Shown piece by piece: positions 12,497-41,225 of a stretch of 49,254 nt of DNA. Source of the stretch: Paramuribaculum intestinale (GTDB lineage: Bacteria > Bacteroidota > Bacteroidia > Bacteroidales > Muribaculaceae); NCBI RefSeq assembly GCF_003024925.1, contig NZ_PUED01000003.1, positions 1 through 49,254 of the forward strand, written 5' to 3'. Numbering within the stretch: the first letter of the stretch is position 1; each line of letters begins with the position of its first letter. The position numbers and the translations under genes were made by a program. The notes beneath the pieces are model-generated. The model ran no database searches. It was given only the letters and a program-made list of their open reading frames with translations, and had not been told where the DNA came from.

Positions 12497-12535
12497 GTGA
12501 AAATTTCACGGCACGCCAAAAATTGTCTAATTTTG
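12497..12535 (+). promoter_or_regulatory. Putative promoter of ABC-F gene with 13-nt palindrome
   Basis: TAATTTTG at 12528-12535 matches TAnnTTTG and ends 4 nt before the ATG at 12540, predicting a leaderless mRNA. A perfect inverted repeat GTGAAA-A-TTTCAC lies at 12497-12509, overlapping where a -33 box would be; it could be an operator, but that is speculation. No TTG box is seen. Confidence 0.45.
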
Positions 12536-16988: not shown

Positions 16989-16993
16989 GAGCG

Positions 16994-17001
16994 CAAAATT
17001 A
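16994..17001 (-). promoter_or_regulatory. -7 element of the AlkD-like gene
   Basis: Minus-strand TAATTTTG ends 5 nt before the ATG at 16988, predicting a leaderless transcript. A TTG (17024-17026, minus) is 22 nt upstream. Confidence 0.5.
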
Positions 17002-17014
17002 GTCAAAAAATACG

Positions 17015-17022
17015 TAACTTTG
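17015..17022 (+). promoter_or_regulatory. -7 element of the LysM-protein operon
   Basis: TAACTTTG, an exact TAnnTTTG match, 34 nt before the ATG at 17057. It overlaps the upstream region of the divergent AlkD-like promoter 13 nt away. Confidence 0.6.
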
Positions 17023-17056
17023 CCAATCGAATCAATCCAACACTGACAAATAACGC

Positions 17057-19144
17057 ATGAACAGACGACTGATATATTTTGCAGCGGCCGCGCTTGTGAC
17101 GCTGGCGGCGGTTGCTTCCGACGGTCTTGACAATCTGCCCGTAAAGCAGGTCAATGGCCGCGACTGCCGTTACTATGAGGTGGCGCAGGGTGAAACGGTC
17201 TACTCCATAGCCCGCAAGCTTCACATATCGCGCGAGGAGATAGAGAAGGCCAATCCATCTGTGCGCGACGGTCTGAGAGCCGGACAGATATTGTATTTCC
17301 CGGTGGAGTCATCGACATGGAAACCACGCCGCCATACGGTCCAGTCAAAAGAAACCATCTATGGCATCGCGCGCGCATACGGTATCACCACCGATCAGCT
17401 GATCGAATGGAATCCGCAGGCACGCGACGGCATACGCAAGGATCAGGTGCTGATAGTCAGTGATCCGACATATCGTCCGGCAACGCTTGCCGTGGCGGAT
17501 TCCCGCACGTCTGAGCCGTCAGCTTCCGTTTCTGAAATTCCGCAACAAAGCTCGCCGAAGGTTGTCGACACACCGGCTCCGACCGTCACCTACCGTATAG
17601 GAGAAAAGGAGAGCCTCTATCGCATAGCTGTCAATCACAACACTACAGTCAGCACTCTGCTGGCTCTTAATCCCGGGCTTGACGAGAGACATTACGAAGC
17701 CGGACAGACCATACTCGTTCCAGGCGTATCGTCGTCGCCGGCCGGTGAGGCAGTGGCGTCCAATGTAGAGCATCGCCAGGTGGCTCCGGCTTCTGGTGCC
17801 GATGTCGTAATGGGGCGTTACAGGGTGAAGAGCAAGGAAACATTCTATTCGATAGCCCATGCCAACGGTCTGACCATAGAGGAGCTTGAAAAAGCCAATC
17901 CCGAGGTCGGCGTGCTCAAGGAAGGAATGATACTCAATATACCGCTTGCCGGTCAGGTCGCATCCTCTGATAATGGTGACGAGGATAATAATTCTTCTGA
18001 CAATATCGATCCCACCATGGCCGTCCCCGGCGAGAATCCGGTGGCGGCCGACGACGTGCCTTCGGCCGTGCAGACTGCCGGCCGTCAGGAGGTGAACGTG
18101 GCGCTTATGCTTCCGCTGATGCTCAATCAGTCACAGCAGCCTAAGAAGGCGCAGCTTTATACTGAGTTCTACAAAGGATTTCTGCTCGCTGTCGATACGA
18201 TGCGCCGCTGTGGCACTCCTATTAATGTGAGTGTTTTCGATACCGAAGACTCTGCCATGCGTGTGGGTTCGTTGCTCCGGGATTCATCTTTGACCGCTGC
18301 CGGAGTGATTATCGCGCCCGACGACGAGACGCAGCTGTCGATGCTCGGCAATTTCGCTCGTGTCAAGGGTCTCAATGTGCTCAATCTTTTTGTGGTGAAA
18401 GATACCACATACCGAAGCAATCCATCGATGATGCAGGGCAATATACCTCACTCGATGATGTATGACAAGGCCATCACAGGGCTGCTCCGTAATTGCGGGG
18501 AGTATACGCCGGTGATAGTGAGCCACAGCGAGTCGCCCGACGACAAGGCGGAGTTTGTCACCGCTCTGAAACATCGTATGGATATGGAGGGTCGTCAGTA
18601 TCATCAGGTGACATTCGACAATGTGTTGCGTCTGAACGATCTTTCGCAGCTCGATCAGGATGGACGATATGTGTTCATACCCGTGAGCGGACGTCAGGCC
18701 GAACTCAACCGTCTGACCGGCGCCATATCTGAATTTCGCGAGAAGTCGTCTCAGTCTGATCCGGTAAGGATATTCGGATATCCGGAGTGGATCACATTCC
18801 GCGGAGAAACGCTGGTCAACATGCATAAACTCAACACAGTAGTATTCTCGCGTTTTTATACTGTTCCCGACGATCCGGCTATGCGCGGGGTTGATGAAGG
18901 TTTCCAGCGCTGGTATGGAGAGCCGATGGCCAACTATGTTCCGCGTCAGGGTACATTCGGTTATGATACAGGACTGTTCGTGATCAATTGGCTCCGCTCG
19001 CAGCAGTCCGAAACACCGGCATCGCATGTCGGCCTACAGAACGGGTTCAACTTCATCCGTGTGCCTGAGGGGGGCTGGGTCAACGATCAGCTGTATCTGA
19101 TCAATTTCCGTCCGAGCGGTCTGATTGACAAAATATCACTCTGA
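17057..19144 (+). CDS. LysM-repeat protein fused to a periplasmic-binding-like domain
   Basis: An envelope protein of 695 residues. A signal peptide covers about residues 1-22. Four LysM peptidoglycan-binding modules follow, near residues 38-82, 96-138, 176-220 and 254-296 (openings RYYEVAQGETVYSIAR, HTVQSKETIYGIAR, YRIGEKESLYRIA and YRVKSKETFYSIA). After an acidic linker rich in Asp/Asn/Ser, residues about 345-690 resemble a type 1 periplasmic-binding fold as in LpoA/YraM and amino-acid-binding proteins (NVALMLPLMLNQS, GVIIAPDDETQLSML, VFIPVSGRQAELNRL). It probably senses or regulates cell-wall synthesis, by analogy with LpoA; this is inference. It overlaps the next gene by 1 nt (TGATG). Confidence 0.88.
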   Translation: MNRRLIYFAAAALVTLAAVASDGLDNLPVKQVNGRDCRYYEVAQGETVYSIARKLHISREEIEKANPSVRDGLRAGQILYFPVESSTWKPRRHTVQSKETIYGIARAYGITTDQLIEWNPQARDGIRKDQVLIVSDPTYRPATLAVADSRTSEPSASVSEIPQQSSPKVVDTPAPTVTYRIGEKESLYRIAVNHNTTVSTLLALNPGLDERHYEAGQTILVPGVSSSPAGEAVASNVEHRQVAPASGADVVMGRYRVKSKETFYSIAHANGLTIEELEKANPEVGVLKEGMILNIPLAGQVASSDNGDEDNNSSDNIDPTMAVPGENPVAADDVPSAVQTAGRQEVNVALMLPLMLNQSQQPKKAQLYTEFYKGFLLAVDTMRRCGTPINVSVFDTEDSAMRVGSLLRDSSLTAAGVIIAPDDETQLSMLGNFARVKGLNVLNLFVVKDTTYRSNPSMMQGNIPHSMMYDKAITGLLRNCGEYTPVIVSHSESPDDKAEFVTALKHRMDMEGRQYHQVTFDNVLRLNDLSQLDQDGRYVFIPVSGRQAELNRLTGAISEFREKSSQSDPVRIFGYPEWITFRGETLVNMHKLNTVVFSRFYTVPDDPAMRGVDEGFQRWYGEPMANYVPRQGTFGYDTGLFVINWLRSQQSETPASHVGLQNGFNFIRVPEGGWVNDQLYLINFRPSGLIDKISL

Positions 19145-23962: not shown

Positions 23963-23994
23963 TTTTGTCGTAATGGCAAAATTGGTTATTTTTG
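23963..23994 (+). promoter_or_regulatory. Promoter of murB-murA
   Basis: TTTTG at 23963-23967 and TATTTTTG at 23987-23994 are 19 nt apart, a full -33/-7 match. The -7 element ends 4 nt before the murB ATG at 23999, so transcription should start at or next to the start codon. Confidence 0.75.
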
Positions 23995-23998
23995 CGAT

Positions 23999-25033
23999 AT
24001 GATAACCGAATTGAAAGATTTTGATCTGACACGCCACAATACTTTCGGTATGCGTGTGAAGTGTGCCAGATGGATAGAATACACATCGGCCGGCGATCTG
24101 CCTGAAATTATGCGGCAGATAGGCGATCTCCCCTTCAAGGCCATAGGGGAGGGGAGCAATCTGCTGTTTGAGGGCGACTACGACGGAGCATTGCTGCATT
24201 CGCGGGTGCTCGACATGGAGGCCGGAATCGACAATAACGGCGACTTTCTGCTGACGGCCGGTGCCGGACTGATTTTTGACGATGTCGTGGCTCACGTCTG
24301 CCGTGCCGGTATCTCTGGCATGGAAAATCTCTCGGCGATTCCGGGGCAGGTCGGGGCTGCTGCTGTGCAGAACATCGGTGCCTACGGCGTCGAAGTGGCC
24401 GACATAATCGACGAAGTGTTGTGCTACGATACCGCGGAGCGTCGTGAAGTGGCTTTCACGGCGTCGGACTGCCGATACGGCTACCGCATGTCGGTGTTCA
24501 AGACTCCGGAAGCGGCCGGGCGGTATATCGTCACCTCGGTACGCTTCCGTCTGCCCGCCGGAGCGGGTCCGCGTCTGGATTACGGCAATCTTCGTGCGTC
24601 GCTTGGCGACAAGGAGCCTACGCCGCTGTCGGTGCGTGAGGCTGTCATTGCAGTGCGCGATGCTAAGCTGCCTGCGGTCGATGAATTTGGCAGCGCCGGC
24701 AGTTTCTTCAAAAACCCGGTAGTCGACAGGAGTCTGTTTGAACGCATCGCGGCTCGGTATGACACCCTTCCTCCCCACTATGACCTTCCCGAATCGAAAG
24801 TCAAGATTCCGGCGGCATGGCTTATAGAGCAGTGCGGATTCAAGGGCATGGAGCGGGGCAATGTGGCCGTGTGGTCGCGCCAGCCGCTTATAATAGTCAA
24901 TCTCACGGGGCGCGCCGAGCCGCAGGAGATCATAGAGATGCAGCGCGACATCACCGAGGCTGTAGGCAAGCGCTTCGGCATCACGCTCCATCCTGAAGTA
25001 GAACATGTAATATCACCCCAAAACAAACCATAG
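23999..25033 (+). CDS. murB: UDP-N-acetylenolpyruvoylglucosamine reductase
   Basis: FAD/NADPH enzyme that reduces enolpyruvyl-UDP-GlcNAc to UDP-MurNAc in peptidoglycan synthesis. The 344-residue type I enzyme shows the FAD-binding block GEGSNLLF near 50-57, SAIPGQVGAAAVQNIGAYG near 112-130, YGYRMSVFK with the catalytic Arg163, SAGSFFKNP with the proton-donor Ser235, and the C-terminal HPEVE block with Glu333. It is followed with zero spacing by murA, so the two consecutive pathway steps form an operon in reverse pathway order. Confidence 0.96.
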   Translation: MITELKDFDLTRHNTFGMRVKCARWIEYTSAGDLPEIMRQIGDLPFKAIGEGSNLLFEGDYDGALLHSRVLDMEAGIDNNGDFLLTAGAGLIFDDVVAHVCRAGISGMENLSAIPGQVGAAAVQNIGAYGVEVADIIDEVLCYDTAERREVAFTASDCRYGYRMSVFKTPEAAGRYIVTSVRFRLPAGAGPRLDYGNLRASLGDKEPTPLSVREAVIAVRDAKLPAVDEFGSAGSFFKNPVVDRSLFERIAARYDTLPPHYDLPESKVKIPAAWLIEQCGFKGMERGNVAVWSRQPLIIVNLTGRAEPQEIIEMQRDITEAVGKRFGITLHPEVEHVISPQNKP

Positions 25034-40239: not shown

Positions 40240-41169
40240 TCAGCGCGCGCGATACACCCAGCCGTCGGGATGCAGACTATTGAAAGCCTGATCGTTCATC
40301 GGGCGCTGTGCTTCTTCGATGGTGGCTCCTGTGGCGGCGTATACGCGGAAGCGTCCGTCGCGTTCAAGTATTTCGAGCTGTTCGGTGCTTCGTGCGGCTA
40401 TATAGTCTTCGGCCTGACGGCGTGTGGCGTGCGATGCCACAACAAGAAAATATTTATGGTCGGCGGGCTTGACCGGCGCAGCGTCCTCACAGGTTGCCAC
40501 GGCGTCGGCCGGTGGCATCTGTATGTAAAGTGTCGGTATGTCGGTGTCGGCGGTTTCGGGAGCCGATATGGCTATAGGACGTCCTGAAGTGATCTCCGGG
40601 CCGGTAAGCGATGCAAAGTCGTGGTTCTGGCGGTCGATGAGCACGGGGGTGGACAAAACGAATCCGAGCAGTGTCAGCACGGCTATGGATGCCGCCACCC
40701 GAATGGCTCTGCGCAACGGCATGAAACGCGGTGTGCGTTCTGTCGGGATGTCAGTCTCCTCTGAGGCGAGTGCGAGCGCGGGAAGTCCGAAATACGGTGA
40801 GTTTGCGATGCTGTCGGCGGCTGGGGAAAAGATCATTGATCCGTTGTCGTCGCGTGTGAAGGTGCCTATCCGGTCAATGCTGACCTCGCCGTTGACGTCA
40901 TAGATGTTTCTGAGTTCGTCCACTCCATCTCTGACGATCGAATCGGCCACCTGATAGCTTATGCCGTCGCGGCGGGCGATGCTCGATGCAAGCATTCCGT
41001 CAGTGTGGGTCAACGCCTGGTTGAACCCGATCGAACGACAGGGCGGCGTGAGCCGTCCGTCCGTCAGACGCGAGTGGCTGACGGAGGCCACAAGGGCTCC
41101 CCATCCGGGTATTACCACGCAGTCATTGTTGACAATAAGGTATTGTATGTGGGGTGTCAGAGTTTTCAC
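40240..41169 (-). CDS. SPOR-domain protein with HU-like N-terminus
   Basis: A single-pass membrane protein of 309 residues. The N-terminus (HIQYLIVNNDCVVIPGWGALV) matches the HU-CCDC81-type domain, a DNA-binding-fold relative. A membrane helix lies near residues 158-178 (IRVAASIAVLTLLGFVLS), and the periplasmic C-terminus is a SPOR domain (KYFLVVASHATRRQAEDYI) that binds denuded glycan at the division septum. The GTG start at 41169 is preferred: it matches the family's short lead before HIQYL, and a -7 element ends 5 nt upstream. Longer starts at 41187 and 41205 exist. May link chromosome and septum, as inference. Confidence 0.78.
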   Translation of the reverse strand: MKTLTPHIQYLIVNNDCVVIPGWGALVASVSHSRLTDGRLTPPCRSIGFNQALTHTDGMLASSIARRDGISYQVADSIVRDGVDELRNIYDVNGEVSIDRIGTFTRDDNGSMIFSPAADSIANSPYFGLPALALASEETDIPTERTPRFMPLRRAIRVAASIAVLTLLGFVLSTPVLIDRQNHDFASLTGPEITSGRPIAISAPETADTDIPTLYIQMPPADAVATCEDAAPVKPADHKYFLVVASHATRRQAEDYIAARSTEQLEILERDGRFRVYAATGATIEEAQRPMNDQAFNSLHPDGWVYRAR

Positions 41170-41182: not shown

Positions 41183-41225
41183 GGCATTTTTTGCAAAACT
41201 GGCATAGTGATGAAGCAAAAATGTT

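Follow-up and report, generated by a model that had tools for sequence, protein, structure and literature searches.

Messenger RNAs of Bacteroidota largely lack Shine-Dalgarno (SD) sequences, and mapped leaderless messages form a small fraction of them; the element TAnnTTTG is the known −7 box of the phylum. In the parts of the published studies used here, about 3.7% of the 5′ UTRs defined by dRNA-seq in Bacteroides thetaiotaomicron are shorter than 10 nt (PMC7366714), 5.5% of the mRNAs of Flavobacterium psychrophilum are leaderless (PMC9723704), and 87% of the leaders of F. johnsoniae are longer than 10 nt, hence 13% are of 10 nt or less (PMC6847099). As a general trait, leaderless and short-leader messages are already known in the phylum, where they form a minority. 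B. thetaiotaomicron uses the same box as the DNA studied here; its 5′ ends were measured, whereas ours are predicted, and the short-leader examples named in that passage are transposases, sensor kinases and transporters (PMC7366714). Flavobacterium belongs to another order than the Muribaculaceae, and the passages concerned (PMC9723704, PMC6847099) contain no gene-by-gene conservation. In passages of PMC3160421 and PMC5397173, leaderless genes were inferred from a promoter-like signal beside the start codon, by the same reasoning as here. According to the passage in PMC3160421, signals there were classified by comparison with the −10 box of E. coli, by which TAnnTTTG may be overlooked; many genes of Bacteroidetes came out as 'atypical'. 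Kasugamycin spares leaderless translation, and the antibiotics passage of PMC9581028 is consistent with this.

The window, by which we mean the whole stretch of 49,254 nucleotides that was analysed, is one contig of the 2.87-Mb draft genome of Paramuribaculum intestinale. The original prediction had placed six TAnnTTTG elements directly before start codons, and all six were re-found in the sequence at the same positions (Table 1). The −7 box of the Bacteroidota housekeeping (sigma ABfr) promoter is present at 6/6 of these genes; their products are, by Pfam, YceG/MltG, ABC-F, DNA_alkylation (AlkD-like), an ABC ATPase, MurB and a protein with two HU-CCDC81 domains. The last gene had been labelled SPOR, a name that was not borne out: the window protein has no SPOR model match in Pfam at E 0.5, and it matches the HU-CCDC81 domains and, weakly, HU instead. 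SPOR was also not found in NCBIfam at E 1 when three homologues were searched. By eye, the conserved tail is SPOR-like in alignment A1, which holds 25 of the 30 HU-CCDC81 proteins. The murB promoter is complete (TTTTG-N19-TATTTTTG), its ATG is the earliest start possible downstream of the preceding stop, and the MurB protein is 81% identical to that of an uncultured Muribaculaceae MAG.

Table 1. Coordinates of the near-start promoter elements and of the HU-CCDC81 gene in the window
Feature	Position	Strand	Details
mltG (YceG family) −7 box TAACTTTG	3136-3129	-	8 nt before ATG 3120
ABC-F −7 box TAATTTTG	12528-12535	+	4 nt before ATG 12540
AlkD-like −7 box TAATTTTG	17001-16994	-	5 nt before ATG 16988
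orphan ABC ATPase −7 box TATCTTTG	23849-23842	-	4 nt before ATG 23837
murB promoter	23963..24001	+	TTTTG 23963-23967, spacer 19, TATTTTTG 23987-23994, CGAT, ATG 23999; box to ATG 4 nt
HU-CCDC81 gene (formerly labelled SPOR) −7 box TAAATTTG	41182-41175	-	5 nt before GTG 41169
HU-CCDC81 gene	40240..41169	-	from GTG 41169; Pfam HU-CCDC81_bac_1 and _2; hydrophobic stretch and SPOR-like tail by eye in alignment

The passage on F. psychrophilum places the box at −12 to −5 (PMC9723704). For F. johnsoniae, the passage counts 434 candidate boxes upstream of predicted start sites, of which the 241 separated from the site by 4 or 5 nt were taken as probable promoters (PMC6847099). Given this gap of 4–5 nt in the Flavobacterium RNA-seq data, a box located 4–5 nt before a start codon therefore predicts that the message begins on that start codon or one base ahead of it. 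We consider it probable that the near-start −7 boxes of the housekeeping sigma factor give mRNAs whose 5′ ends coincide with the start codon or precede it by a few bases. At the genes with boxes at 4–5 nt, the box would be so close that the mRNA begins on the start codon itself; the mltG mRNA would begin a few bases before its start codon; and such mRNAs would be translated leaderless or near-leaderless, beside the majority of leadered, SD-less ones. Judged from the sequence, leaderless or near-leaderless transcription of the six genes is likely. The original prediction had let transcription start at or next to the start codon throughout, which agrees with the 4–5 nt boxes and has to be softened for mltG, where a box at 8 nt predicts a leader of ~3–4 nt. 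From the positions, statistics and conservation observed here, we infer box use, the exact start sites, leaderless translation and any regulatory meaning.

Alternatively, the start codons could be misplaced, the true starts lying downstream, behind ordinary leaders. The GTG start of HU-CCDC81 in the window and in the sister species could be read in this way, as could the AlkD-like start, which was shifted downstream by the coding-score caller. Against this, the start codon is backed by homology at the N-terminus for ABC-F, HU-CCDC81 and murB: ABC-F homology starts at residue 1–6 across relatives, HU-CCDC81 homology runs from residue 1 in the 25 aligned proteins, and residue 1 of MurB is matched in the window's own protein, the sister and several others. 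Misplaced starts are in our judgement very improbable, and mRNAs beginning at or near the called start codons remain the preferred reading.

The frequency of short spacing was determined on a baseline of 971 ATG starts, taken from 0.82 Mb of the window's own genome and 0.80 Mb from six relatives, in stretches that were not motif-chosen; the relatives' contigs G252:C3, G205:C3 and G233:C40 are in the sample because they bear murB. The first ATG of an ORF was accepted if it lay ≤45 nt from the coding call, and starts from coding score alone were dropped, being too imprecise near the 5′ end. The window and 13 motif-chosen contigs were excluded from the baseline counts and included in the −33, folding and start-codon comparisons. 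TAHHTTTG occurs within ~100 nt upstream of 268/971 starts; the nearest box lies at 0–2 nt in none of them, at 3–8 nt in 18, at 9–14 nt in 8, at 15–25 nt in 47, at 26–40 nt in 97 and further away in 98. The 18 at 3–8 nt compare with a mean of 1.62 and a maximum of 5 in 200 dinucleotide shuffles; none of the 200 reaches 18, and the short-spacing class is therefore real. The counts at 9–14, 15–25 and 26–40 nt also exceed those of all 200 shuffles, and control motifs at 0–8 nt before ATG number 1 (reversed) and 2 (reverse complement). Three of the 18 are the sister's counterparts of window genes; their inclusion, if it has an effect, pushes the baseline up.

The 3–8 nt class accounts for 6.7% of the box-bearing starts (18/268; 95% CI 4.0–10.4), and for 9.7% (26/268) when the eight at 9–14 nt, all actually at 9–13 nt, are added. 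Short spacing is a minority class, about 4–10% of the genes with a recognisable box in the sampled genomes. The arrangement had been put forward as notable; in amount it is ordinary for the phylum, 6.7% being near the published 3.7–13% (definitions vary). Short spacing is more frequent in the window than elsewhere (4/30 versus 18/971, Fisher P 0.003), but the window was picked for the motif.

Within the 3–8 nt class, the counts from d3 to d8 are 1, 5, 2, 3, 4 and 3, and 4 nt is not a sharp peak. The trough at 9–14 nt (8 versus 18 at 3–8 nt) has a P of 0.08. In a stricter set, composed of genes without another start codon nearby, 104 genes bear a box, 6 of them at 0–8 nt, 0 at 9–14 nt and 98 beyond. 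Raw TANNTTTG-Nd-ATG counts in 59 family genomes are 2384 for d2, 2798 for d4, 2361 for d5 and 2797 for d9 (21, 47, 35 and 39, respectively, in the window's own genome). Although d4 is higher than d2 and d5 (paired P about 1e-4 each), it equals d9 across the 59 genomes, and there is therefore no special peak at 4 nt. The proposed excess of short distances stands relative to shuffled sequence; relative to longer distances it does not, since d4 equals d9 and, per position, 3–8 nt spacing is rarer than 26–40 nt spacing. A sharp maximum at d=4 in a first histogram (10/362 genes) proved artefactual, because 13 of the sampled contigs had been selected for TAACTTTGNNNNATG matches. Phylum-wide d=4 counts (198 genomes; 47 in the own genome versus 12 for the reversed pattern) were set aside because reversing the pattern does not provide a good control.

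Upstream of the box, TTTG at 18–21 nt was found in only 3/29 short-spacing ATG-start genes, with 2 at the control spacing (window and motif-chosen contigs included). Support from the −33 element is therefore limited to murB, the HU-CCDC81 family and a few others, and the remainder rely on the −7 box.

In the sister species (genome G252), spacing is held within 1 nt for 5/6 genes; the own/sister values, in nt, are 4/4 for murB, 4/4 for ABC-F, 5/5 for AlkD-like, 8/7 for mltG and 5/5 for HU-CCDC81. The sixth gene, the ABC ATPase (4/7), has TATATTTG 7 nt before its ATG in the sister, where the start codon is shifted. For murB, 30 loci were examined out of 35 genomes with a match, and short spacing is present in 3/30 (own, sister and one outlier); at one locus (L106), an additional ATG in frame, at d=3, was left uncounted. 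ABC-F has it in 3/29 loci (own, sister and one distant relative) and the ABC ATPase in 2/28, the other 26 showing one box, at 37 nt; 1/30 and 2/30 loci, respectively, had been dropped for short flanks. For AlkD-like and mltG, 12 genomes each were used, of 56 and 57 matching, and the ten added ones were chosen by an alignment starting near residue 1. With own and sister included, AlkD-like shows short spacing in 6/12 genomes and mltG a box at 3–8 nt in 4/12, with two more at 11 nt. HU-CCDC81 shows short spacing (3–8 nt) in 24/30 homologues and 12/16 genera; the 30 loci were cut from 58 genomes with a match and include same-genus genomes, and the homologues are therefore not independent.

Without own and sister, and compared with the baseline of 18/971, the counts are 1/28 for murB, 1/27 for ABC-F, 0/26 for the ABC ATPase, 2/10 for mltG (P 0.014), 4/10 for AlkD-like (P 2e-5) and 22/28 for HU-CCDC81 (P 3e-33), where the P values ignore relatedness. 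Among these relatives, only HU-CCDC81, AlkD-like and mltG, of the six window genes, are above baseline. The short spacing of murB and ABC-F is lineage-specific in the relatives examined, and that of AlkD-like and mltG is recurrent among relatives. These counts also bear on chance as an explanation, according to which TAnnTTTG-like words are common upstream and the six were picked by eye. Relatives of murB, ABC-F and the ABC ATPase at background are what chance would give, as are equal raw counts at d4 and d9; the shuffles, the spacing conserved in the sister and the HU-CCDC81 loci outside own and sister speak against it. We give chance very little credence and retain the boxes as candidate promoters.

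The HU-CCDC81 promoter is unusually complete beside those of the other short-spacing genes. TTTG lies 19–20 nt upstream of the box in 18/24 short-spacing homologues, exactly at 20 nt in 14 of them, compared with TTTG at 18–21 nt in 22/171 leadered genes; the window copy has TATG (41206-41203) at the −33 place instead of TTTG. The start codons at the 30 loci are ATG in 20, GTG in 9 and TTG in 1, whereas GTG makes up 80/1362 of the called starts overall; own and sister both start with GTG. The column of residue 1 is invariant across 25/25 aligned proteins, and the GTG starts are supported because their residue 1 lines up with the ATG starts of relatives. Six homologues are exceptions: four start with ATG and have the box at 16–29 nt, the start of one (L239) is poorly placed and its box lies at 26 nt, and one (L258) has the one-letter variant TAATTTCG 4 nt before GTG. 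Folding at the 5′ end is weak in the 30 loci, with a mean of −2.4 versus −5.1 kcal/mol for 400 other starts.

Another explanation accepts the boxes as genuine and takes them for minor or internal promoters, with the main mRNAs coming from further upstream and translation being mostly leadered. At murB, a second TATGTTTG 119 nt before the gene would suit such an mRNA, but it carries a G at a position that is nearly G-free in the F. johnsoniae promoters of the passage in PMC6847099, and it is without counterpart in the sister's listing. The HU-CCDC81 gene lies downstream of a mutL-type gene in the same orientation, and in the window the in-frame ATGs at 41187 and 41205 are usable by an upstream transcript. 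Own and sister have further upstream in-frame ATGs, after which the codons differ by P-to-S changes; on the other hand, 23/30 homologues have no other upstream in-frame ATG or GTG. Three of the genes are, moreover, divergent from their neighbours, namely murB (161 bp from the orphan ABC ATPase gene), ABC-F (98 bp) and AlkD-like (68 bp), which argues against transcripts entering from further upstream. We regard minor or internal promoters as unlikely, and favour boxes whose main transcripts would begin at or near the start codon.

Whether HU-CCDC81 is a maintained leaderless gene seems to us evenly balanced. If it is, selection would keep, in most genera, a −33/−7 promoter abutting AUG or GUG, the latter being unusually frequent (9/30), while leaders drift at genes such as murB. 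The gene may then be one of a few fixed members of such a set, possibly together with uvrA and a Fur-family regulator, and their output would follow the state of the translation machinery and not leader signals. The HU-CCDC81 protein gave no tblastn match in ten loci outside the family. A conserved leaderless HU-CCDC81 was not found in print among the matches listed, in a search that covered mostly open-access literature, and gene-level conservation of short spacing at HU-CCDC81 seems to be new. HU-CCDC81 keeps short spacing in most of the related genera examined and is worth testing. Leaderlessness kept at some genes across the family and drifting at others would, if shown, turn a percentage into named, testable genes; a GUG start that stays leaderless from genus to genus would, if true, be a useful case for start choice by SD-less ribosomes.

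Leaderless translation had been proposed to characterise cell-wall and envelope genes. The short-spacing genes of the baseline do not support this. Pfam was run on 15 of the 18, the remaining three being the sister copies of window genes; 11 had a match, mostly to proteins of repair, translation, regulation and transport, and 4 had none. The matches are UvrA (two genomes), Fur-family (two), LepA, a GidB-like protein, a THUMP-like methyltransferase, an M20 peptidase, a Na/H exchanger, a PMT-type protein and a RapZ/APH protein. The box lies 6 nt before the ATG in both sampled copies of uvrA (L042:2487-5306, own genome; L150:10519-13362, G233), and 8 and 7 nt before the ATG of the Fur-family genes L096:10375-10848 (own genome) and L157:4891-5358 (G254), respectively. 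The identity between the sampled copies is 66% for UvrA and 54% for the Fur-family protein. These pairs hint that uvrA and the Fur-family gene are in a fixed short-spacing set, with n=2 each and both found by their short spacing.

Some minor observations were made in addition. The divergent gap between the AlkD-like gene and the LysM gene at 17057 extends over 16989-17056; the 60 nt upstream of the AlkD-like ATG differ from the sister by one base, the proteins being only ~72% identical. Read from its sequence, this gap is a putative short two-way promoter region, strongly conserved. Another contig of the own genome (G000:C338:906-1079) carries a 98% identical second copy of the last 58 MltG residues, perhaps an assembly overlap or a partial duplication. 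In genome G241, the same TAACTTTGTATCATG occurs near several contig ends (C1:12, C17:15, C26:11 and others), and this repeat is perhaps a mobile element with a leaderless-type first gene.
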